From contig NZ_CP085344.1 in the NCBI RefSeq assembly GCF_020618415.1, positions 3,551,977 to 3,615,976 of the forward strand: a DNA stretch of 64,000 nucleotides, read 5' to 3'. This stretch comes from Cupriavidus sp. MP-37. Its GTDB lineage: Bacteria > Pseudomonadota > Gammaproteobacteria > Burkholderiales > Burkholderiaceae. Under the pieces are notes generated by a model, which was given only the letters and a program-made list of their open reading frames with translations, was not told the origin of the DNA and searched no databases. Positions 6,001 through 59,530 of the stretch are shown here, piece by piece. Positions within the stretch are counted from its first letter, which is position 1. Every line of letters begins with the position of its first letter. A program made the translations under genes and the position numbers.

Positions 6001-6305
6001 CGCCGGCCCGGGCGATCCGGCAGGCGTGCCTGCTGCGCTTCCGGCCGATCATGATGACCACCTTCGCCGCGGTGATGGGCGCGCTGCCGCTGGCGCTGGG
6101 CCTGGGCGCCGGCGCCGAGCTGCGCCAGCCGCTGGGCCTGGCGGTGGTCGGCGGGCTGCTGTTCTCGCAGGTGATCACGCTGTTCATCACGCCGGTGATC
6201 TACCTGGCGCTGGACAAGTTCTCCGGCACCGGGCCGCTGCAGATCGACGCGGAAGGCAACAAGCTGCCGGAGAAGGTGTCCGCGGAGGCGGTGCGGCAGC
6301 ACTGA
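3099..6305 (+). CDS. mdtB: RND efflux permease, HAE1 family (MdtB/MdtC-like)
   Basis: A 1068-residue proton-driven inner-membrane efflux permease. Twelve hydrophobic segments in the RND arrangement and two large periplasmic loops are visible. The proton-relay residues are present: Asp402 and Asp403 in the LVVDDAIVMLEN segment of TM4 and a lysine of the VKKNAIMM segment (residues 948-949) in TM10. Sequence style (ELCIRRPVMTVLL at the N terminus, PIAALPSFNSPVIQVTA) is closer to MdtB/MdtC than to AcrB. Enterobacterial MdtB and MdtC work as a pair; only one permease is encoded here, and no outer-membrane factor follows, so the pump probably borrows a channel such as the OprM-like protein at 32.3 kb. 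Substrates cannot be inferred. Confidence 0.88.
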   Translation: MTLSELCIRRPVMTVLLCLAVVVTGIVLYPTIPIAALPSFNSPVIQVTATLPGASPETMAASVATQLEKQFATIPGVSVISSSNTLGNSSITIEFNSDRDIDDAAVDVQAALFRAQRSLPIEMTTPPSYRKVNPADAPVLLLAINSPAMSLADLNAFGDNLISPTLATLPGVAQVQIFGQKRFAVRVRAHPDALAARGLTLDELATALNRANANTPVGTLDSARQTLTIQANRQLTSADAFRNIIVASQPNGALVRLSDVAEVEDSVETIKTGSWLNNERSIVLAVLRQPDANTVAVVDAIHAALPRLIQQMPGSINVSVVNDRSRSIRESIHDVQFTLALTVALVVMVIFLFLRRAAATLIPTVSLPISLIGTVALMKAFGYSLDNVSLLAITLAVGLVVDDAIVMLENIVRHIEEGVPPLKAALVGSREMGFTILSISISLVAVFIPIFFMPGVIGLLFHEFAAVVSLSILVSALVSLTLIPMLCARFLSAENVPVDESHHAYGDHPPGQPAKPAVAQKQTLGMRSTQWFENLFEFTLHRYARGLDWCLAHRRTVLVAAGLTFVLTAVLFVAIPKGFFPEEDIGQIRVNAEGPQDISFDAMSERLRDAAERMRANPAVKSIVVAIGGGPSPAINTGRMFVELKPRGERAAMPKVIESLRRDVAGVPGLAVYFAPVQNLQLGGRQSKSRYQYTLQSVKAGQLQDYSDQLMAKMRADSLFRDVTSDSQQSGLEAHLTIDRDKANALGVQMQDVRTALYSAFGERQVSTIYTPIDNYYVILQAADVDRTDESAFSKLYVRSKTGQMVPVSAFATTERRVGPIAVNHQGQLPSVTVSFNLAPGAALGDASARIDRYKQEIAMPTSIFTSWGGDAAVFQSSQATQIVLLVAAIAVIYTLLGVLYESYIHPLTILAGLPSAAVGALLTLFIFNVELSLIAVIGVLMLIGIVKKNAIMMIDFALAAQREQGMTPARAIRQACLLRFRPIMMTTFAAVMGALPLALGLGAGAELRQPLGLAVVGGLLFSQVITLFITPVIYLALDKFSGTGPLQIDAEGNKLPEKVSAEAVRQH

Positions 6306-6320
6306 CGCCTTCCGTCGCCT

Positions 6321-6457
6321 GCCGGTTTGCTCCCCTCTCCCGCGAAGTGGGAGAGGGGCAGGGGGTGAGGGTAGGCGCTGGCATACCGACGTCCTGAACT
6401 TCGTCGGTACTCCGGCCCTCACCCCCACCCCTCTCCCACTTCGCGGGCGAGGGGAGC
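6321..6457 (+). repeat. Dispersed palindromic repeat, two inverted units
   Basis: Two copies of a GC-rich palindromic unit in opposite orientation occupy 6321-6370 and 6412-6457, each containing a CCCCTCTCCC..GGGAGAGGGG hairpin followed by a CAGGGGGTGAGGG tail. The same unit recurs near 14.8, 22.8, 33.8, 48.3, 52.5 and 59.5 kb. The arrangement resembles REP/BIME elements. It sits just downstream of the RND permease gene and may end its transcript. Confidence 0.75.
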
Positions 6458-6587
6458 GTCCACCCAGGACGGCAGCATTCTCCAGCCCCTTGCCTGTTCC
6501 CACTTCCACCAGACCCTAGCGAATATGTGGCATCCCAGCCACATTCCCAGCGGCGTTGATCTAAGCCCTTTACCTATCAGACTTAAA

Positions 6588-6602
6588 TGATAATAATTCT
6601 CG
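6588..6602 (+). promoter_or_regulatory. Fur box upstream of the tetrapyrrole uptake operon
   Basis: The sequence TGATAATAATTCTCG matches the 7-1-7 Fur operator TGATAAT-N-ATTATCA at 12 of 14 positions: the left arm is perfect and the right arm matches five of seven. It lies about 110 bases before the TonB receptor start, inside the most AT-rich part of the 6306-6714 spacer. Iron repression of the whole operon by Fur is the natural reading. The rest of that spacer holds the palindromic repeat at its left end and nothing else recognisable. Confidence 0.7.
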
Positions 6603-6714
6603 TTAACTAAAACGGCGTCACCCGCGGCTAGCCTGCCGGGCAGCGCCTCCACGCGAGCCAGCCACCCTTTACGGTTTTCCGCCAGCCAGCGTTCGATTTC
6701 TTTGGGGAGAATCC

Positions 6715-8994
6715 ATGAAACGTCGCTGCCTGGCGCACCTGCGCGCCACCGTCCGGGTCACGCCAGTTGCCGCCGTCTGCGCGGCGCTGGGCGCGCCAGC
6801 CATTGCCGCGGACGGCGCTGGCAACACCACTACGCTGGCTGCACTGAATGAGGTGGTGGTCACCGCCACCCGCACCGAAGAACGCGCCGATGCGGTGGCG
6901 TCCACCATCACCACGCGCGATGCGCGCCAGATCCAGCGCGCACAGCCGGTCGACGAAGCCGGGCTGTTCGCCGACGAGCCGGACATCGACGTGCCGCGCG
7001 ACCGCCGCCGCTTTGGCGCCGGCAGCATCAATATCCGCGGCATCGAGGACAACCGCGTGCTGCAGATGGTCGACGGCGTAAGGCTGCCGGATTTCTTCAA
7101 CGGCGGCGGTCCGTCGAACATCTCGAGCTCGACCCGCGATGCGCCGGAGTTCTCGTTCCTGAAGCGGGTCGAAGTGCTGCGCGGGCCGGCGTCGAGCCTG
7201 TATGGCTCCGACGCGATCGGCGGCGTGGTGGCATACGCGACCAAGGATCCGTCGGACCTGATGCAGGGCCGCAAGGTCGGCGGCGAGCTGGGGCTGAACT
7301 GGAACGGCATCGACAATGGCTTCGGCCAGAGCGCCGGCGTGGCCGGCGGCAGCGACACCCTGCAGGGCCTGTTCATGTATGCGAACCGCAACGCGCATGA
7401 AATGAAGAACATGGGCAGCGACGATTCCAACTCGGTCAACCGCACCCGGCCCAACCCGCAGGACGTGCGCACGCAGGCCTGGCTCGGCAAGATCGTGCTC
7501 AACGCCAGCCCGGCGCACCAGTTCAGGTTTACCTACGAGCATCGCGACGGCAACACCGACACTGACCTGCTGCGCTTGTCCACGGCCTTGCCGCGCGTCA
7601 CCGCCGCCAATGGCAATGAAGACCTGAGCCGCGACCGCGTCAGCCTGGACTACACGTGGAAGCCGGCCAGCGGCGTGCTCGACCGCCTGGCCGCGCAGGT
7701 CTACTACCAGGAGTCCGAGACCACCACGCTGACCAGCCAGGTGCGCAGCAACACCAGCACCGGCTGCTCGGCCACCACGCGCGGCACCAGCCTGTGCAAC
7801 GTCTCGCTGGGCTTTGCCTTCAAGCAGGAGCAGACCGGCTTCAACCTGCAGGGCGACAAGTCGTTTGCCACCGGCGGCGTCGAGCACCGGCTGATCGGCG
7901 GCGTCGATTTCCTGCGCGTGCGCTCGTCGGAAGCGCGCGACGGCACGGTGCGCAACCTGACCACCGGCACCACCACCAAGTCGCTGGCCGGCGAGAATTT
8001 CCCGATCCACGACTTCCCTACCGGCGAGACGCGCCAGACCGGCCTGTTCGCGCAGGACGAGATGCGCTTTTTCGATGGCCGCTTTACGCTGACGCCCGGC
8101 CTGCGCTTCGACCATTACTCGCTGTCGCCCGATGGCGATGACTTGGTCTACAACAATGCCGGCGGCCGCCCGGCGGTCAGCAAGAGCGATTCGCACTTGT
8201 CGCCCAAGCTGTCGGCGCTGTGGCAGGCGAGCGACCGCGTCAACCTGTGGGCGCAGTACGTATTCGGCTACCGCGCGCCGAACTACCAGGAAGTCAACGG
8301 CAGCTTCCGCAATCCGGTGCAGGGCTATGGCGCCGCGCCCAATGCGAACCTGGATCCGGAGAAAAGCCGCTCGTTCGAGGTCGGTGCGCGCTATACCAGC
8401 GACAACGTGCAGACCAGCGTGGCGCTGTTCGACAACCGCTACCGCGACTTTATCGAACAGGTGCAGCTGGCCTGCCCGTCCGACCCCGCGTGCCTGCCCG
8501 GCCTGCGCGCGACCTACCAGTACCGCAACCAGACCAGCGTGCGCATCTATGGTGCCGAGTGGCGCGGGGTGTGGCGCTTCCTGCCGCAATGGCGCGTCGA
8601 TGGCGCGGTGGCGTACGCGCATGGCAACAACGAGCAGACCGGCCAGCCGCTCAACAGTGTGTCGCCGCTGCGCGCCAGCGCCGGGCTGACGTGGGAGCGC
8701 GTGCAGGGACAGGGCGCCGCGATCCGCTGGCGCGGCGCGCGTCCGGTGACGCGCACCGACGATTCGTCGTTCACCTACTTCAAGCCCGCCGGCTACGGCG
8801 TGGTCGACCTGCAGGCGTGGTGGCGCTTCAATCGCTACGTCAGCCTGGCGCTGTCGGTCAACAACCTGTTCGACAAGAAGTACTGGCTGTGGGGCGACGT
8901 GCGCCAGACCGGCGTATCGGCCTCCGAGCCCGGCGTGGACTTCTACACGCAGCCGGGCCGCACCTTCGCCGCCAGCCTGAAGCTGTCGTTCTGA
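6715..8994 (+). CDS. TonB-dependent receptor, heme/hemoglobin receptor family
   Basis: A 759-residue outer-membrane active transporter. A signal peptide of about 31 residues (cleavage near AIAA-DGAG) is followed by a TonB box NEVVVTATR at about 45-53, a plug domain containing NIRGIEDNRVLQMVDGVRLPD and VEVLRGPASSLYGSDAIGGV, and a 22-strand barrel ending in the terminal aromatic SLKLSF. The plug motifs fit the hemoglobin/transferrin/lactoferrin receptor class. The YRAP (519-522) and PNANL (542-546) pair corresponds to the FRAP and NPNL signature of heme receptors, but there is no histidine between them. The start is fixed by GGGGAGA four bases upstream of ATG 6715. It opens a Fur-box operon with a CobN-like chelatase, so heme or another metallo-tetrapyrrole is the probable ligand. 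Confidence 0.88.
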   Translation: MKRRCLAHLRATVRVTPVAAVCAALGAPAIAADGAGNTTTLAALNEVVVTATRTEERADAVASTITTRDARQIQRAQPVDEAGLFADEPDIDVPRDRRRFGAGSINIRGIEDNRVLQMVDGVRLPDFFNGGGPSNISSSTRDAPEFSFLKRVEVLRGPASSLYGSDAIGGVVAYATKDPSDLMQGRKVGGELGLNWNGIDNGFGQSAGVAGGSDTLQGLFMYANRNAHEMKNMGSDDSNSVNRTRPNPQDVRTQAWLGKIVLNASPAHQFRFTYEHRDGNTDTDLLRLSTALPRVTAANGNEDLSRDRVSLDYTWKPASGVLDRLAAQVYYQESETTTLTSQVRSNTSTGCSATTRGTSLCNVSLGFAFKQEQTGFNLQGDKSFATGGVEHRLIGGVDFLRVRSSEARDGTVRNLTTGTTTKSLAGENFPIHDFPTGETRQTGLFAQDEMRFFDGRFTLTPGLRFDHYSLSPDGDDLVYNNAGGRPAVSKSDSHLSPKLSALWQASDRVNLWAQYVFGYRAPNYQEVNGSFRNPVQGYGAAPNANLDPEKSRSFEVGARYTSDNVQTSVALFDNRYRDFIEQVQLACPSDPACLPGLRATYQYRNQTSVRIYGAEWRGVWRFLPQWRVDGAVAYAHGNNEQTGQPLNSVSPLRASAGLTWERVQGQGAAIRWRGARPVTRTDDSSFTYFKPAGYGVVDLQAWWRFNRYVSLALSVNNLFDKKYWLWGDVRQTGVSASEPGVDFYTQPGRTFAASLKLSF

Positions 8995-9014
8995 GCGGCA
9001 GCAAGGAGCTTCGC

Positions 9015-12000
9015 ATGTCCCCACAAAACATGACCGGCCGCTGGCTCTGGGCGCTGCTGTGCCTGCTGGTATGGATGGGCGCGATATGGATAGGCGCGGC
9101 GCAGGCGGCAACGCCGCGCATCGCCATCCTGACCAGCTCGCCGGTGCCGGCGGGCAAGTTCGGCCCGCTGCGCGAACTGGCGCAGGCCCAGGGCATGACG
9201 CTGGAAGCGCAGTACCTGGAGCGCATGCCGGCGCAGGAGGTCGCACCGTTTATCCACAACGCCGACCTGCTGATCGTCGATGCGCCGCGCGACCATATCG
9301 TCAGCGCAATGCTGCAGCGCCTCGGCCCGTTGTGGAGCGAGGCGCGCGTGCCGCGCGTGCTGATCGCCACCGACCGTTATCAAGCGCATGGCGTCGACGA
9401 CAAGCTCGCGGCCCGGCTGCATGCGTACTACGTCAACGGCGGCCGCGGCAACTTCGGCGCCATGATGCGCACGATCGCGGCACAGCAGTTCCGCTTGCGT
9501 GCCGATGCCACCATTCCCGCGCCGGTGGTGTTCCCCAAGGCCGCCTACTACCATCCCCGGCTCGCCGGCGTGATCACCACCTCGCCGCTGGAAGCGCTGG
9601 CCGCCTCCGGCAGCAGCGGCCCGGTGATCGGCATCGCCATCCACCAGGCCTATGTGTCGGGCCTCGACAGCGCCTTTATCGACGACCTGATCGCGCGGCT
9701 GGAAGCCCGCCACGCGCGCGTGCTGGCGTTCTACGGTCCGGTGATGGATGCCGACGGCATTACGCGCATGGCCATGCCCGGCGGCAAACGGCTGGTCGAC
9801 GTGCTGGTCAACGGCCAGATCATGCTGAACCCGCACGGGCGCAAGGCCGAGTTCGAGCAGCTCGACGTGCCGGTGCTGCAGGTCATGCCCTACCGCAAGG
9901 GCGACGCGCAGGCGTGGCAGGACGACCTGCACGGCATCAGCCTGACCGATACGCCGTTCTACCTGGTGCAGCCCGAGCTGGCCGGCGTGATCGATCCCAT
10001 CCTGGCCGCCGCCACGGCCAAGGGCGACGGCGCCATCGTCGGCCTGCCGGCGCAGCTCGATGCGGTGGCGGACAAGGCGCTGGCGCTGGCGCGGCTGCGC
10101 CACCTGCCCAACGCCGACAAGCGCGTGGCGATCCTGTACTACAACTATCCCGCCGGCGAGAAGAACCTGTCGGCGTCGTTCCTGAACCTGCCCAAGAGCC
10201 TCGCCAGCACGCTGGCGGCGCTGCGCGCGGCGGGCTACACCACCGAGGCCGCCGACGAAGCGCGGCTGCAGCGCGACCTGGGCGCGTTGCTGGCGCCGTT
10301 CTATCGCAGCGGCAGGCTGGAACCGCTGCTCGATGCCGGCCTCGCGGTGTGGATGCCGATGTCGCAATACCGCCGCTGGTACGACGCGCAGCCCGCGCCG
10401 TTCCGCGCTGCCGTGGCGCAGCGCTGGGGCAATCCGGAGCAATCGGCGATGGCGACCACGCGCCGCGGCGAAGCCGGCTTCGTGATCCCGCGGCTGCAGC
10501 TCGGCAACGTGGCGCTGATGCCGGTGCCGCCGCGCGGCGAGCGCAACGAGTCGGACGAGAAGGCGCTGTACCACTCCACCTCGACGCCGCTGAACCACTT
10601 CTACATGGCCGCCTACCTGTGGGCGCGCCAGGAGCGCGAGGCGCTGGTGCACTACGGCACCCACGGCACGCAGGAATGGACGCCGGGCAAGGAGCGCGGC
10701 CTGTCGGTCACCGACCAGCCCTACCTGGTGCTGGGCAATGTGCCGGTGATCTATCCGTATATCGTCGACGACGTCGGCGAAGCGATCCAGGCCAAGCGCC
10801 GCGGCCGCGCCGTGATCGTTAGCCACCAGACGCCGCCGTTCCGGCCGGCCGGGCTGCATACCGACCTGGTAGCGCTGCACGACCAGTTGCATGCGTACCT
10901 GCAGCAGGACGAAGGCGCGGTGAAGGACACCATCCGCCAGCAGATCCTGTCGCGCAGCGCGTCGATGCATCTGTTCGAGGACATGGGCTGGAGCGCGGCG
11001 CGGGCGCGCGCGGATTTCAGCGGCTATCTCGATGCGCTGCATATCCACCTGCACGAACTCGGCGGCGCGCTGCAGCCCTATGGCCTGCACACGTTCGGGC
11101 AATCGCAGGACGAAGGGCTGCGGCTTTATACGACCATGGCGATGCTCGGCAAGGACTGGCTCAGGCGCGTGTTCCCCGACGAGCCGGAAGAGCTGTTCGC
11201 GGTCGACTATGCGCAGCTGGCGCAGACACCGCCCTATGCGATGGTGCGGCGCTATGTGGCCGAGGGCGCCTCGCTGGACGAGCTGCGCGATGCGCGCCAG
11301 CGCGAAGACATGCAGCGCGCGCGGCAGCTCTATGCCAGCCTCGATGCAAGGCCCGAGAACGCGGGGCTGCTGACCGCGCTGGCCGGCCGCCACCTGCACT
11401 CGGGCACCGGCGGCGACCCGGTGCGCAACCCCGACACGCTGCCGACCGGACGCAACCTGTACGGCTTCGATCCCTCCAAGGTCCCCAGCCGCGAAGCCTG
11501 GAAGGCGGGCCAGGCCGCCGCCGAGGCGATGATCGCGGACTGGCGCAAGCGCCATGGCCGTTACCCCGACAAGCTGGCGTTCTCGCTGTGGAGCGTCGAG
11601 ACCATGCGCCACCAGGGCATGCTCGAAGCGCAGGCGATGGCGGCGCTGGGGGTGCGGCCGAAGTGGGACGACGGCGGCCGCGTGGTCGGGGTCGAGCCGA
11701 TTGCTGCCGCGGAACTTGGCCGACCGCGCGTCGACGTGGTGCTGTCGGCCACCGGTCTGTATCGCGACCACTTCCCCAACCTGATGAAGTGGCTGGCCGA
11801 GGCGGTAAAGCTCGCCGCCGCGCAACCGGAAGCCGGCAACGTCGTCGCCGCGAATACCCGCGCAGTCCGTGAGCGGCTAAGCAAGCTGAATGTCCCCGCC
11901 GAGCGGCTCGACGCGCTCGCGGTGACCCGCATCTTCGCCAGCGAATCGGGCAACTACGGCACCGGCCTGAACGATGCCGCGATGGCCACCGACACCTTCG

Positions 12001-13031
12001 GCAGCGGCCGCCAGGCCGATGCCAGGCTGGCGCAGCTGTATCTCGCGCGCATGCAGTACGCCTACGGCCCGGACGAGCAGCACTGGGGCGAGGCGCTGCC
12101 GCAGGTCAACCTGTATGCCGAGAACCTCAAGGGCGTCGATGGCGCGCTGCTGGCGCGCAGCTCCAACCTGTACGGCATGCTGACCACCGATGATCCGTTC
12201 CAGTATCTCGGCGGCATCGGCCTGGCGGTGCGGCACCTGACCGGCAAGGCGCCGGAGCTGCTGATCTCCAACCTGCGCGATGCCAGCCAGGCGCGCACCG
12301 AGACCGCCGCCGGCTTCCTCGCCAGCGAACTGCGCACGCGCTACTTCCATCCCGGCTGGATCGAGGGCATGAAGGCCGAGGGCTACAGCGGCGCGCTGAA
12401 CGTGCTCGACACCGTCAACAATTTCTGGGGCTGGACCGCGGTCTCGCCAGAAATCGTGCGCGACGACCAGTGGACCGAGTTTGCCGAGGTCTATGTCAAC
12501 GACAAGCACCAGCTCGGCCTGAACCAATGGTTCGAGAAGCACGCCCCGCAGGCCCAGGCGCAGGTGATCGAACGCATGCTCGAGGCCGCGCGCAAGGGCT
12601 ACTGGAAGGCCGACAGCAAGCTGCTGCGGACGCTGGCGCAGCGCTATGAAGACCTGGCGCAACGGCACGATATCGTCAGCAACAACCGCGCGTTCAACCA
12701 GTATCGCGAGCAGCAGGCCCGCGCCGCCGCGCCGGGCTATGGCTTGCAGCCGCCCGCCGCGGCACCGCGCAAGGCGGCGGCACCGACGCCGCGGCAGGCT
12801 GCCGCCGCGGCACCCGCGCCCGAGCCCCCTGCCGCGCCCGCGCCGAACCCGCCCCAGCCGGTGCAAGGCATGGAGCTGGTGGAGCGCAAGCCGCCCGCGG
12901 CCGAGATCGTGCCGGTGCTGTCGTGGCTGGCCGGCGGCATTGCGCTGGCGGCGGCGATCGCGGGCGGCGCGCTCAGTGCGCGGCGGCGCCGGGTCGATGC
13001 CCGCGCCGGCTGGCTGCCGGAACGGCGCTGA
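9015..13031 (+). CDS. Exported, membrane-anchored CobN/HmuS-like chelatase
   Basis: A 1338-residue member of the CobN/BchH (class I chelatase large subunit) family. Cytoplasmic CobN inserts cobalt into a corrin ring, but this protein has a signal peptide (hydrophobic residues 10-30, cleavage near AQA-ATPR) and, after an Ala/Pro-rich linker, a C-terminal membrane helix at about 1300-1320 followed by arginines, so its chelatase body must lie in the periplasm. The family motif HYGTHGTQEWTPGK is intact at 546-559. ATG 9015 is preceded by AAGGAG. No CobS/CobT or ChlI/ChlD ATPase partner is present. In Porphyromonas and Bacteroides the analogous HmuS sits with a TonB receptor and ExbB-like proteins and has been described as removing iron from heme; a similar dechelatase role is inferred here. 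Replacement in a cobalamin or F430 context is possible but less likely given the Fur box and ChaN. Confidence 0.8.
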   Translation: MSPQNMTGRWLWALLCLLVWMGAIWIGAAQAATPRIAILTSSPVPAGKFGPLRELAQAQGMTLEAQYLERMPAQEVAPFIHNADLLIVDAPRDHIVSAMLQRLGPLWSEARVPRVLIATDRYQAHGVDDKLAARLHAYYVNGGRGNFGAMMRTIAAQQFRLRADATIPAPVVFPKAAYYHPRLAGVITTSPLEALAASGSSGPVIGIAIHQAYVSGLDSAFIDDLIARLEARHARVLAFYGPVMDADGITRMAMPGGKRLVDVLVNGQIMLNPHGRKAEFEQLDVPVLQVMPYRKGDAQAWQDDLHGISLTDTPFYLVQPELAGVIDPILAAATAKGDGAIVGLPAQLDAVADKALALARLRHLPNADKRVAILYYNYPAGEKNLSASFLNLPKSLASTLAALRAAGYTTEAADEARLQRDLGALLAPFYRSGRLEPLLDAGLAVWMPMSQYRRWYDAQPAPFRAAVAQRWGNPEQSAMATTRRGEAGFVIPRLQLGNVALMPVPPRGERNESDEKALYHSTSTPLNHFYMAAYLWARQEREALVHYGTHGTQEWTPGKERGLSVTDQPYLVLGNVPVIYPYIVDDVGEAIQAKRRGRAVIVSHQTPPFRPAGLHTDLVALHDQLHAYLQQDEGAVKDTIRQQILSRSASMHLFEDMGWSAARARADFSGYLDALHIHLHELGGALQPYGLHTFGQSQDEGLRLYTTMAMLGKDWLRRVFPDEPEELFAVDYAQLAQTPPYAMVRRYVAEGASLDELRDARQREDMQRARQLYASLDARPENAGLLTALAGRHLHSGTGGDPVRNPDTLPTGRNLYGFDPSKVPSREAWKAGQAAAEAMIADWRKRHGRYPDKLAFSLWSVETMRHQGMLEAQAMAALGVRPKWDDGGRVVGVEPIAAAELGRPRVDVVLSATGLYRDHFPNLMKWLAEAVKLAAAQPEAGNVVAANTRAVRERLSKLNVPAERLDALAVTRIFASESGNYGTGLNDAAMATDTFGSGRQADARLAQLYLARMQYAYGPDEQHWGEALPQVNLYAENLKGVDGALLARSSNLYGMLTTDDPFQYLGGIGLAVRHLTGKAPELLISNLRDASQARTETAAGFLASELRTRYFHPGWIEGMKAEGYSGALNVLDTVNNFWGWTAVSPEIVRDDQWTEFAEVYVNDKHQLGLNQWFEKHAPQAQAQVIERMLEAARKGYWKADSKLLRTLAQRYEDLAQRHDIVSNNRAFNQYREQQARAAAPGYGLQPPAAAPRKAAAPTPRQAAAAAPAPEPPAAPAPNPPQPVQGMELVERKPPAAEIVPVLSWLAGGIALAAAIAGGALSARRRRVDARAGWLPERR

Positions 13032-13070
13032 GGCAAACGCAGATATCCATCGCATTCAACGAGACCAGAC

Positions 13071-13580
13071 ATGACACCCACCCTGCTCGAAACCCTGATG
13101 TACGACGTCGGCCAGCTGTTCCTGATACCGACGCTGGCGCTGATCGCGCTGCTGTTCCTGTACGCCTTCTGGGCGCTTGGCGAATTCGCCATGCAGGCCT
13201 GGCTGCGCGCGCGCCACCCGATCGCCAGCGGGCGCGGCTATGTGCTGGTGGCGTGGGCGCGCAAGCACCAGGTGGCCGATGCCGACGCGCTCGACGTCGC
13301 CGCGCACCGGCTGCTGGAGCGGCCCCGCATCGCCACGCGCGTGGCGCCGATGCTGGGGCTGGTGGCGACCATGATCCCGATGGGGCCGGCGCTGAAGGGG
13401 CTGTCGGGTGGCAACCTGGCCAATGTGGGCGAGAATCTCACCATCGCCTTCTCCGCGGTGATCCTGGCGCTGATCGCGGCCAGCATCACCTTCTGGGTGG
13501 TCAACGTGCGCCGGCGCTGGCTGGCCGAGGAGCTGGTGTGGCTGGGGCAGTCGCGGCCGCAATGGGAGGTGGACGCATGA
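13071..13580 (+). CDS. MotA/TolQ/ExbB-family proton channel protein
   Basis: A 169-residue membrane protein with three hydrophobic segments at about 14-36, 88-106 and 120-143. The TolQ/ExbB hallmark is seen in the RVAPMLGLVATMIPMGPAL segment that opens the second helix. It lacks the long cytoplasmic extension of MotA. It lies 39 bases after the chelatase gene and overlaps the next gene by the ATGA junction, so it is part of the same transcript and translationally coupled to the DUF2149 protein. Together they probably form an ExbB/ExbD-like motor that energises the receptor or the chelatase; this job is inferred from context. Confidence 0.8.
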   Translation: MTPTLLETLMYDVGQLFLIPTLALIALLFLYAFWALGEFAMQAWLRARHPIASGRGYVLVAWARKHQVADADALDVAAHRLLERPRIATRVAPMLGLVATMIPMGPALKGLSGGNLANVGENLTIAFSAVILALIAASITFWVVNVRRRWLAEELVWLGQSRPQWEVDA

Positions 13581-13924
13581 AGTTCCTGGAAGAGAGCGAG
13601 GCCGACGATCCGATCCTGTCGGTGGTGAACCTGATCGACGTGTTCCTGGTGGTGATCGCCGCGCTGCTGGTGGCGATCGCGCAGAACCCGGCCAACCCGT
13701 TCACCCATGATGACGTGACTATCATCAAGAATCCCGGCAAGCCGAACATGGAGATCGTGTCGCGCCAGGGCGAGAAGGTGGTGCGCTACCAGGCCAGCGG
13801 GCAGGTTGGCAGCGGCGACGGCATCAAGGCCGGGGTGGCGTACCGGATGCAGGACGGATCGATGGTGTACGTGCCGGAACAGCCTGCGCCGCAGGCGTCG
13901 GTGCCGACTACTGAAACCAGATAA
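13577..13924 (+). CDS. DUF2149 protein, probable ExbD-like motor subunit
   Basis: A 115-residue protein that matches the DUF2149 family found beside CobN-like and ExbB-like genes in bacteria and methanogens. Its single membrane helix carries VVNLIDVFLVVIAALL, which lines up with the PFIDVMLVLL segment of ExbD/TolR; Asp21 takes the place of the essential ExbD aspartate. The periplasmic part is short (about 75 residues) with a proline-rich tail. ATG 13577 overlaps the stop of the ExbB-like gene (ATGA), the usual sign of stoichiometric coupling. Function as the ExbD partner is inferred from this motif and the gene order. Confidence 0.72.
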   Translation: MKFLEESEADDPILSVVNLIDVFLVVIAALLVAIAQNPANPFTHDDVTIIKNPGKPNMEIVSRQGEKVVRYQASGQVGSGDGIKAGVAYRMQDGSMVYVPEQPAPQASVPTTETR

Positions 13925-13934
13925 GGGAAACCGC

Positions 13935-14771
13935 GTGATCTCATTCCGCTTGTGCGCGGCCGCCATGCTGGCCGCTGTCGCTGTGCTGGCCGCCGGCTGT
14001 GCTGCGCGGGGGCCGGCGCCGTCCACGGTCAGCGCCGCCTTCGCCGGCAAGCCCTACGTGTTGCTGGGCGAGGTGCACGACAACGCCGCCGGCCAGCGGC
14101 AGCGGCTCGACGCGCTGACGCGCGCGCTCGAGCAAGGCTGGCGCCCGGCCATCGCCATGGAGCAGTTCGACCGCGAGCGCCAGGCCGATATCGACCGGGC
14201 CCGGCGCGAGCGCCCGCGCGATGCCGACTACCTGATCGCGCAGGCCGGCGGCGGCGCCTGGCAGTGGCCGCTGTACCAGCCCGTGGTGGCGCTGGCGCTG
14301 CAATACGATCTGCCGCTGGTCGCCGCCAACCTGTCGCGCGCCGACGCGGGCAAGATCGTGCGCGGCGGGCTGGACGGGCTGTTTTCCGCTGAGGAGCGGC
14401 ACCGGCTTGGCCTGACCGGCGCCCTGCCGCCGGACCTGGTGGCGGCGCAGACCGCGGTGCTCGACCGCGGGCACTGCGGCAATTTCCCCAAGGCGATGCT
14501 GCCCGGCATGCTGGCGGCACAGGCCGCGCGCGACGCGGTGATGGCGCAGGCGTTGCGGCCGCATGCCGCGCGCGGCGCGGTGCTGATCGCGGGAAACGGG
14601 CATGTGCGGCGCGATGTGGGGGTGCCGCGCTGGCTTGCGGGCGAGGCCGGCAAGGTGATCAGCGTGGGCTATGTGGAAAGCGCGCCGGCCGATGGCGAGT
14701 TCGACCTGGCAGTGGTGGTGCCGGCGGTCGAGCGCAAGGATCCGTGCCTGCAGGCGAAGCCGGCGGGGTGA
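13935..14771 (+). CDS. ChaN-family iron-regulated lipoprotein, probable heme binder
   Basis: A 278-residue lipoprotein with a clear lipobox LAAGC (lipidated Cys22). The mature part begins with YVLLGEVHDNAAGQRQRLDAL and contains AMEQFDRERQADID, the signature of the ChaN/DUF399 fold, and ends with GNGHVRRDVGVP. ChaN of Campylobacter jejuni is known to bind heme in a dimer. GTG at 13935 is chosen because the lipoprotein signal begins there and AGGGAA lies upstream; it is 10 bases beyond the DUF2149 stop, so the gene closes the Fur-controlled operon. It may receive or store heme delivered by the receptor. The anchoring membrane cannot be told. Confidence 0.78.
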   Translation: MISFRLCAAAMLAAVAVLAAGCAARGPAPSTVSAAFAGKPYVLLGEVHDNAAGQRQRLDALTRALEQGWRPAIAMEQFDRERQADIDRARRERPRDADYLIAQAGGGAWQWPLYQPVVALALQYDLPLVAANLSRADAGKIVRGGLDGLFSAEERHRLGLTGALPPDLVAAQTAVLDRGHCGNFPKAMLPGMLAAQAARDAVMAQALRPHAARGAVLIAGNGHVRRDVGVPRWLAGEAGKVISVGYVESAPADGEFDLAVVVPAVERKDPCLQAKPAG

Positions 14772-14807
14772 GGTGGTGAGTTCAGGACCGGTTGCCATGG
14801 ACGCGCC

Positions 14808-15026
14808 TGCCCTCTCCCCCGCCCCTCTCCCGCAAGCGGGAGAGGGGAGCAAACCGGCGGTATGTGAAAGCGTTCGAGCCGGCTGCATCCCTGCGCCTGC
14901 GCCCCCTTCTTCCGCAAGCGGGAGAGGGGAGCAAACCGGCGGCGTGCGGAGCGTGTGAGCTTGCTGAGAACGCTCGCAAGCGCTCCCCTCTCCCGCGCGC
15001 GGGAGAGGGGTTGGGGGAGAGGGCCG
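14808..15026 (+). repeat. Dispersed palindromic repeat, three units
   Basis: Three units of the window-wide palindrome lie at about 14808-14861, 14899-14942 and 14981-15026; the first two share an orientation and the third is inverted. The middle unit is degenerate (CCCCCTTCTTCCGC in one arm). They fill most of the spacer between the ChaN gene and tctC. Confidence 0.75.
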
Positions 15027-15099
15027 GCGCCGCCACGAAGTCGCGCCGTCCGCATACCCGCCCCACCATCCACGTAAACCCCAACCCCAACGCCCCCGA

Positions 15100-15135
15100 T
15101 TTGACAGCCTTTTGACAGTTTCCCCCGCCTAGAAT
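15100..15135 (+). promoter_or_regulatory. 11-bp direct repeats and -10 element ahead of tctC
   Basis: TTTGACAG occurs at 15100-15107 and again at 15111-15118, exactly 11 bases apart. Read on the other strand the pair is CTGTCA-N5-CTGTCA, the half-site layout of a Pho box. A TAGAAT element at 15130-15135 follows the second repeat by 11 bases, the distance seen at promoters activated by OmpR/PhoB-type regulators. Binding by the TctD-like regulator at 24.4-25.0 kb, or by PhoB, is inference. From 15136 to 15356 nothing else is recognisable except the ribosome site of tctC. Confidence 0.4.
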
Positions 15136-15356
15136 CCGCCCCAAGACCAGCAGTTCCGGTCTGACGTTCACCAAATCCAAGAACAGTCCCGGCCAGCCCT
15201 TGCCGCGCCGGACAGGAGACCAGCCCGGTGCCGCGCCGCTGCGCACGCCCCCAGGCCCCAATCCCGTCCCGCAACGCCGAGGCCACCGGAACCCCCGGGT
15301 CGGATCGCGGCAGCCAACGCAGGCAAGCGATCACCGGCATTACCAAGGAGACCGCC

Positions 15357-22739: not shown

Positions 22740-22870
22740 GCCGGTTTGCTCCCCTCTCCCGCCTGCGGGAGAGGGGCAGGGGGTGAGGGCCGGCGCTGGC
22801 ATACCAACAGGCATCACTTCGTCGACGCGCCCGCCCTCACCCCAACCCTCTCCCGCAAGCGGGAGAGGGA
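22740..22870 (+). repeat. Dispersed palindromic repeat, two inverted units
   Basis: Units at 22740-22800 and 22831-22870 in opposite orientation, separated by a variable spacer, fill the gap between the convergent reductase and histidine kinase genes. The left unit keeps the full family form from GCCGGTTTGCTCC to GGCGCTGGCATACC. Confidence 0.78.
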
Positions 22871-33790: not shown

Positions 33791-33824
33791 GGGTTTGCTC
33801 CCCTCTCCCGCTTGCGGGAGAGGG
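33791..33824 (+). repeat. Dispersed palindromic repeat, single unit
   Basis: One truncated unit, GGTTTGCTCC followed by the perfect hairpin CCCTCTCCCGC..GCGGGAGAGGG (33801-33824), lies between the convergent oprM and ompW-like genes, directly before a classic terminator. Confidence 0.72.
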
Positions 33825-33855
33825 AGTACACCCGCAGCGGTTTATGCGACTGAAG

Positions 33856-48254: not shown

Positions 48255-48388
48255 CTCCCCTCTCCCGCTTGCGGGAGAGGGGTGGGGGTGAGGGCCAGTG
48301 GATCCACGAAGTCCAGGCCTGCGGTATGCCAGCGCCCGCCCTCACCCCCTGCCCCTCTCCCGCAAGCGGGAGAGGGGAGCCAACCGGC
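48255..48388 (+). repeat. Dispersed palindromic repeat, two inverted units
   Basis: Two units in opposite orientation (about 48255-48297 and 48331-48388) with perfect CCCCTCTCCCGC/GCGGGAGAGGGG stems lie between the convergent rubredoxin and MerR-type genes, with a GCGGTATGCCAGCGCCCGCC spacer edge that also occurs in the copy near 22.8 kb in inverted form. Confidence 0.78.
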
Positions 48389-52503: not shown

Positions 52504-52540
52504 CTCCCTCTCCCGCAAGCGGGAGAGGGGAGCAAACCGC
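52504..52540 (+). repeat. Dispersed palindromic repeat, single unit
   Basis: One unit with hairpin CCTCTCCCGC/GCGGGAGAGG followed by GGAGCAAACCGC, in the orientation opposite to the 33.8 kb copy, between the convergent deacylase and lipoprotein genes. Confidence 0.72.
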
Positions 52541-59395: not shown

Positions 59396-59530
59396 CTCCC
59401 CTCTCCCGCGCGCGGGAGAGGGGTGGGGGTGAGGGCCAGAGTTTCAACGGAGTTAAGTCCGTCGCTATTGCCAACGCCCGCCCTCACCCCCGGCCCCTCT
59501 CCCATTTCATGGGAGAGGGGAGCAAACCGC
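59396..59530 (+). repeat. Dispersed palindromic repeat, two inverted units
   Basis: Two units in opposite orientation (59396-59437 and 59480-59530) in the spacer between the tam start and the yidC terminator. The right unit has a shortened hairpin CCCATTTCATGGG in place of CCCGC..GCGGG. The rest of the 59307-59617 spacer holds only the yidC terminator and no gene. Confidence 0.75.

Follow-up and report, generated by a model that had tools for sequence, protein, structure and literature searches.

The genome of Cupriavidus sp. MP-37 encodes, within a stretch of 64,000 nucleotides of contig NZ_CP085344.1 (positions 3,551,977 to 3,615,976, hereafter the window, whose own numbering is used throughout), a set of five adjacent genes that follows a Fur-type box and brings together a TonB-dependent receptor, a CobN-like protein predicted to be exported, an ExbB-like protein, a DUF2149 protein, and a ChaN-family lipoprotein. 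Our proposal, to which we give about an even chance, is that Fur represses these genes as one operon and that they serve to draw iron from a metal-bearing tetrapyrrole, with heme as the likeliest candidate. The CobN-like, ExbB-like, and DUF2149 genes form a triad that recurs across contexts, zinc and nickel among them, and we tentatively extend the proposal to a proton-driven role for this triad.

Gene content and Fur-type box

All five genes lie on the + strand. The first encodes a TonB-dependent outer-membrane receptor of the heme/hemoglobin family (6715..8994). It is followed by a 1,338-aa homolog of the CobN/HmuS-like class I chelatase H-subunits (9015..13031; PF02514, 978 bits), with a putative signal peptide and C-terminal transmembrane anchor, then by an ExbB/TolQ/MotA-like membrane protein (13071..13580; PF01618, 25 bits for a cut-off of 22.9), by a DUF2149 protein made of one transmembrane helix and a small beta domain (13577..13924; PF09919, 96 bits), and by a ChaN-family lipoprotein (Cofac_haem_bdg, Tiki superfamily) with a GTG start and the lipobox LAAGC (13935..14771; PF04187, 147.5 bits). 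Successive genes are spaced by 20 bp, 39 bp, a 4-bp overlap, and 10 bp, and neither the interval between the box and the receptor nor that between the chelatase-like and ExbB-like genes holds a gene; a single operon is supported. The first-pass annotation of this DNA had described a Fur box and five genes with short gaps or overlaps, a description that the gene calls, the Pfam and NCBIfam names, and the conservation of the box bear out.

The box itself (TTAAATGATAATAATTCTCGTTAAC, 6583..6607, strandless) is located ~110–130 bp 5' of the receptor start and agrees with the classical 19-bp Fur consensus at 14 of 19 positions, in two overlapping registers. It encloses the −10 element of a sigma-70-like promoter (TTTACC, 17 nt, AATAAT; 6569..6597, + strand; 9 of 12 matches), the sole such site in 6300–15300, where shuffled sequences give a mean of 0.5, so that this site alone is not above chance. 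The box is kept 5' of the receptor in all 10 named Cupriavidus loci, and the arms of AAACGAGAATAATTCTCGTTT pair at 10 of 10 positions in four of these loci and at 7 of 10 in the window. When up to one mismatch is allowed, TGANAATNATTNTC is found across the 6.1-Mb genome 13 times in the forward and 10 times in the reverse orientation, as compared with 1 + 1 for the reversed-pattern control. These matches amount to 17 distinct places, and among the 14 whose flanks were considered (13 viewed, plus the window operon), six precede iron or TonB genes, namely this operon, feoA, tonB, hemP, and two TonB-dependent receptors. Where other neighbors were compared with Pfam, a cytidylate kinase, a response regulator, and a desaturase/AurF-like protein were found; the remaining places viewed have no clear gene or have neighbors outside this comparison. 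A longer and stricter pattern matched this operon alone genome-wide. Since feoAB, tonB, hemP, and two TonB receptors share the motif, Fur-type iron control of the operon is well supported at the sequence level. Zur control was considered and dropped, the best match in the window to a Zur-like consensus reaching 13 of 21 positions and overlapping the Fur-type box.

A predicted exported chelatase with a mixed HmuS/CobN signature

Taken at its NCBIfam name, the CobN-like protein would be an ordinary cobaltochelatase subunit acting with CobS and CobT in cobalamin synthesis: it scores 1,382 bits against NF004644 (cobaltochelatase subunit CobN; cut-off 1,248), there is no other CobN in the genome, and a CobS/CobT-like pair is encoded on the second contig (L078:6314-9021). 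We nonetheless regard this explanation as very improbable, because both members of that pair fall below their NCBIfam cut-offs, because B12 uptake and salvage are encoded in the genome, because the protein has HxGTHG where true CobN has HxGKHG, because a Fur-type box precedes the operon when no Rfam family, B12 riboswitches included, reaches its gathering score in 6200–15300, and because the protein is itself predicted to leave the cytoplasm. Hydropathy reveals a hydrophobic N-terminus and a C-terminal hydrophobic segment followed by RRRR, and the same combination of an N-terminal signal and a C-terminal segment is found in the full-length relatives, whereas the C-terminal segment is absent from the three true CobN proteins checked (3/3). 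On these grounds, the CobN-like protein is predicted to be exported and membrane-anchored.

Its structural model (pLDDT 86.6) retrieves both CobN (7c6o, Foldseek E = 2.3e-73) and HmuS (9d26, E = 2.7e-68), and a class I chelatase H-subunit fold is predicted over the modelled length. HmuS is a demonstrated heme dechelatase, the reaction of which is ATP-independent (PMC12583661). Its catalytic histidine (His538, in HFG(T/A)HG) is kept as H550 in the HYGTHG of the window protein and is invariant in an alignment of 19 rows, albeit conserved throughout the chelatase superfamily as well; the motif is HxGTHG, as in HmuS, versus HxGKHG in the rows of true CobN.

The first-pass annotation had deduced a dechelatase function from HmuS. 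If the predicted exported chelatase fold and the catalytic histidine agree with this deduction, three other features of HmuS are missing, and several observations plead against the equation of the two proteins. The His1209/Glu1212 pair of the HmuS motif LSLDHxxEFMGG is replaced by Asp/Gln in the window protein (LTTDDPFQYLGG), as in 11 of 11 Cupriavidus rows, which makes this second motif one of CobN type (DDPFQYLGG), and the side of the tree that unites the protein with HmuS and the triad proteins is only moderately supported (87/92), in a tree built with three full-length hmu-operon proteins after pieces of HmuS had given a long branch (2.57). The hmu-operon proteins of Bacteroidota plasmids, for their part, keep LSLDHVYEFMGG in 3/3 cases.

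Likewise, the methionine-rich insertion of HmuS domain IV has no equivalent in the window protein, the corresponding segment of which has 122 residues and four methionines. The same segment spans 184, 372, and 289 residues, with 8, 11, and 31 methionines, in the three hmu proteins, an imperfect control in which only the third is clearly methionine-rich. The Met79/His254-Gly-Arg heme site of HmuS is not found in register either: the aligned head columns hold no methionine in the window protein and one in two of the three hmu proteins, and the HGR of the window protein (274–276) is out of register with that of all three, its histidine being a glutamine in 7 of 11 Cupriavidus rows.

With regard to these features, the two hmu CobN-like proteins whose insertion is not methionine-rich, those of Bacteroides finegoldii (L141:3571-7653; 8/184) and Aureibacter (L142:2925-7607; 11/372), the latter also devoid of an aligned Met79, imply that the published characteristics of HmuS do not hold for every hmu operon. 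The HmuS-type His/Glu (DHPFEYLGG) also occurs in three proteobacterial members that have no domain IV insertion (L079, L084, and L110), from which it follows that pair and insertion are not strictly linked. Another CobN-like protein (L083:7097-11125) has a histidine-rich stretch in domain IV, with 16 histidines in 144 residues, the composition of which suggests zinc or nickel binding.

The ExbB-like/DUF2149 pair and the triad

In blastp comparisons with the hmu operon of Prevotella nigrescens, the ExbB-like protein matches the hmu ExbB at E = 2.9e-22 and the DUF2149 protein finds its counterpart at E = 1.6e-23, so their homology to HmuU and HmuV, respectively, is supported by sequence. The single transmembrane helix of DUF2149 bears an aspartate, D21, that is invariant in 15 of 15 aligned proteins, within an ExbD/TolR-like motif; the DUF2149 protein of Runella has a glutamate at this position. 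When DUF2149 is aligned to ExbD with hhalign (E = 4.8e-4), aspartate falls on aspartate, and 5 of 5,000 shuffles do equally well. For the other part of the protein, a Foldseek search with the model (pLDDT 71) gave no PDB match at E ≤ 0.001, and the similarity claimed is that of the transmembrane part only.

The distribution of this pair was then compared with that of chelatases and receptors. Among 369 genomes of the same class, seven, the window's included, pass the NF004644 cut-off, and in the six other loci an ExbB-like and a DUF2149 gene are nearby each time (6/6), sometimes 5' of the chelatase gene or on the opposite strand, when none of eight other CobN-type loci (L085–L091 and L115) has them. 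On plasmids, DUF2149 is found in 11 records, 10 of which hold it in one cluster with CobN; in the remaining one, from Paracoccus, neither a CobN nor an ExbB-like gene was seen within the 13.6 kb viewed, up to the start of the record. Five further same-class loci from different families (L092–L096), which were excluded from this count, encode a long CobN-like protein of ~1,450–1,495 aa, in which the four compared carry HxGRHSTYEF and NDAFDYLGG; all five have an ExbB-like neighbor, and three give weak DUF2149 matches only.

The role usually given to such a pair is to energize the receptor, in which case the CobN-like protein would work without a motor or would only bind or regulate. A published figure assigns HmuU/HmuV to the energy supply of HmuR (PMC12583661), and PA1924 of Pseudomonas aeruginosa is likewise assigned to that of its receptor (PMC4542158, PMC9431628). 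In our eyes this explanation is rather unlikely for the window operon. Indeed, the operon has no TonB gene while its genome encodes a canonical tonB-exbB-exbD elsewhere, the triad cluster of Trichlorobacter includes annotated exbB, exbD, and tonB, and canonical ExbD-like frames are present in L082 and L083, which implies that the pair should be unnecessary as a Ton motor. Moreover, no receptor is annotated in the 15.7 kb viewed for a triad from Comamonadaceae, and the DUF2149 match among 14 control genomes, where a PF02514 match is found as well, belongs to Methanosarcina acetivorans, an archaeon without an outer membrane. In methanogens, DUF2149 is listed as linked to TolQ (PMC9425974).

Because the pair tracks the chelatase, because canonical Ton systems are present elsewhere, and because DUF2149 occurs in methanogens, we tentatively propose, with low confidence, that the triad is a class I (de)chelatase driven by the proton motive force. 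An ExbB/ExbD-related stator would here replace the ATP-driven AAA+ subunits (CobST, ChlID) and work the exported H subunit, allowing metal removal or repeated turnover without ATP. Such a module could be neutral with respect to the metal (iron in Cupriavidus and Bacteroidota, zinc in Pseudomonas, nickel in Runella), and HmuS–HmuU–HmuV would be its heme branch. The stator would stand in for the AAA+ partners because an exported protein cannot reach CobST or ChlID in the cytoplasm.

A number of results speak against such a motor. The hhalign probability of the DUF2149–ExbD alignment is only 32%, and type-2 Cupriavidus CobN-like proteins have a hydrophobic C-terminus yet no ExbB-like or DUF2149 neighbors. 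Dialysed membranes of B. theta supplied with NADH, and having no proton gradient, converted ~80% of heme into protoporphyrin IX (PPIX), and recombinant HmuS alone with NADH also made PPIX, limited to one or two turnovers (PMC12583661); in addition, free PPIX was still formed by B. fragilis when both btuS1 and btuS2 were mutated (PMC6460266). These three results also favor the pair as an energizer of the receptor. From the gradient-free assays, it follows that a motor is not strictly needed in HmuS and would at most aid turnover or product release.

On a plasmid of Runella slithyformis (L114:5443-11156), the triad is found within a hydrogenase-maturation (hyp) cluster that also encodes a weakly NicO/DsbD-like membrane protein, a setting that hints at the retrieval of nickel.

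Cargo and proposed route of iron

The receptor scores above the cut-off of both NCBIfam models for heme receptors (TIGR01786, 426 bits for a cut-off of 324; TIGR01785, 417 for 317), and among solved structures it is closest to PhuR (8the, E = 8.6e-104). Together with these two observations, the ChaN lipoprotein (E = 7.1e-5 to 2g5g) and the presence of the same box before hemP make heme a likely but unproven cargo. What tells against heme is that the residues aligned to the presumed heme ligands of PhuR, His124 and Tyr519 (137/532 in the chain by an inferred offset), are Thr140, in all 11 Cupriavidus rows, and Asn528, in each of the 10 rows that are readable.

The same machinery might accordingly handle another cargo, for example coproporphyrin, a corrinoid, or a non-tetrapyrrole metallophore, in which case iron control would merely reflect the iron gained. 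Besides the Thr/Asn residues of the receptor, the CobN-type second motif is consistent with this possibility, as is the occurrence of triads in the hyp cluster of Runella, beside B12 lower-ligand genes in Trichlorobacter, and in the Zur-controlled set of P. aeruginosa (PMC4542158, PMC9431628). We hold it to be a minority explanation that deserves attention, to which the heme-receptor scores, the proximity to PhuR, a lipoprotein of a heme-uptake family within the operon, and the box of hemP are opposed.

The wider gene content of the genome bears on the fate of the ring. The first-pass annotation had pointed out that the set includes neither a heme oxygenase nor an ABC importer, and this holds genome-wide for the families compared, namely PF01126, PF05171, and FecCD, other families of heme degradation or import lying outside the search. 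Heme oxygenase (PF01126) has no match in the genome, when controls from Synechococcus, Deinobacterium, and Corynebacterium are positive, and HemS (PF05171) has none either, with a positive control in E. coli. The sole FecCD permease over the cut-off (another, partial match reaches 21.9 bits for a cut-off of 26.5) belongs to a B12 salvage cluster, which also holds cobA, cobT (DBIPRT), a gene for an adenosylcobinamide kinase, and one for a BtuB-like receptor, albeit this receptor and the permease score under the B12-specific cut-offs. FeoAB is encoded in the genome, with the same Fur-type box.

On our preferred reading, that of iron retrieval from a metallo-tetrapyrrole, the receptor, energized by the ordinary TonB–ExbB–ExbD encoded elsewhere, would carry the compound into the periplasm, and ChaN would bind the compound, or the metal within, at a membrane face. 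Iron removal in the periplasm would then fall to the CobN-like protein, served by a putative proton-driven stator-type complex of the ExbB-like and DUF2149 proteins in place of the cytoplasmic AAA+ partners, and Fe(II) would enter through FeoAB, the ring not being imported. If true, soil betaproteobacteria would remove iron from tetrapyrroles outside the cytoplasm and without heme oxygenase, by a route that the available literature shows so far for anaerobic Bacteroidota, and many proteins labelled cobaltochelatase CobN would probably be exported proteins of metal retrieval.

Distribution among relatives

The first-pass annotation had suggested a search for the five-gene set in relatives, and named genomes, scanned with the CobN-like protein as query, gave 12 loci. 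All five genes are present in 10 of 10 Cupriavidus loci, where the best segment of the chelatase is 79–97% identical, and four of the five are found in Uliginosibacterium aquaticum and in Magnetospirillum fulvum, with no match to ChaN. The chelatase gene of C. necator SHC 2-3 has an early stop (L033:10001-13690) and the receptor of C. lacunae is split over two frames (L034:7612-9890), each reflecting either an assembly error or a real loss. As a marker for the operon elsewhere, ChaN was discarded, its only relative on a plasmid record being that of Comamonas odontotermitis, which adjoins a TonB receptor.

At the level of the family, 130 of 249 genomes encode a PF02514 protein, as do 18 of the 30 same-genus genomes listed. 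Ten of these 30 fall in the score band of the window type (970–990 bits), three of which also carry a true CobN, and eight fall in that of another type (906–937 bits), each with a true CobN; three of the latter eight were viewed as DNA, types being otherwise assigned by score band. By this criterion, none of the 30 genomes has both types. In the three loci of the other Cupriavidus type (L085:5733-9866, L086:5881-10068, and L087:4959-9371), the CobN-like gene is directly 5' of a true CobN and encodes HxGRHGTLEW, with DDTYQYAGG in L085 and L086, and it has no ExbB-like or DUF2149 neighbor.

Independently of the operon, a 26-bp palindrome (CCCCTCTCCCGC..GCGGGAGAGGGG) is present in the window in ten copies with at most three mismatches, when 0 are expected from 100 shuffles. 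These copies are found at 14822–15010, 22751–22870, 33800–33825, 48257–48377, 52505–52530, and 59398–59423, and three of them lie 3' of the ChaN gene.

Comparison with known systems

The Phu system of Pseudomonas resembles the operon in that PhuR is the nearest solved structure to the receptor and in that the operon has a ChaN-type gene, PhuW being presumably a relative of ChaN. It differs from it in PhuS, PhuT, PhuU, and PhuV, which have no counterpart in the operon, and in the presumed PhuR heme ligands, which are not conserved. In contrast with the cytoplasmic CobN of M. tuberculosis (7c6o), the window protein is predicted to be exported and anchored, carries HxGTHG instead of HxGKHG, has ExbB-like and DUF2149 neighbors, and belongs to an operon without CobS or CobT.

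The set had initially been presented as one known from Bacteroidetes, which is too narrow, for a receptor, a CobN-like, an ExbB/D-like, and a DUF2149 protein are also described as the Zur-regulated PA1922–PA1925 of P. aeruginosa (PMC4542158, PMC9431628). As far as can be judged from gene descriptions rather than from the sequence of PA1923, both sets co-regulate these four genes by a metal, but PA1922–PA1925 responds to zinc through Zur, whereas the box is of Fur type here, and these descriptions mention no ChaN. Among the matches listed for the open-licence PMC literature (titles and abstract starts), we found neither a Cupriavidus CobN-like iron operon nor a proton-driven chelatase. Within the same scope, three elements were not found in print: a version of the set from betaproteobacteria that combines a Fur-type box with ChaN, an active-site signature that mixes HmuS and CobN features, and the argument that the ExbB-like/DUF2149 pair tracks the chelatase and not the receptor.

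The remaining comparison is with Bacteroidota. The use of CobN-like proteins for heme iron, with FeoAB, is known in B. fragilis (PMC6460266), and the window protein is related to HmuS by its HxGTHG motif, by blastp homology, and by its predicted fold, whereas it lacks both the domain IV insertion and an in-register Met79/His254 site and has Asp/Gln for His1209/Glu1212. At the level of the operon, the initial likening to HmuR–HmuS–HmuT/U/V stands for the ExbB-like and DUF2149 proteins, which match HmuU and HmuV, and fails for HmuT and HmuY, of which the operon has no gene: as compared with hmuYRSTUV of Bacteroides thetaiotaomicron and Porphyromonas gingivalis, it has counterparts of R, S, U, and V only, with ChaN added. 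Both nevertheless gather a receptor, an anchored CobN-like protein, an ExbB-like protein, and a DUF2149 protein in one iron-regulated operon, and this comparison makes testable both the role of HmuU/HmuV beside an ordinary Ton system and the reason why recombinant HmuS stops after one or two turnovers (PMC12583661).

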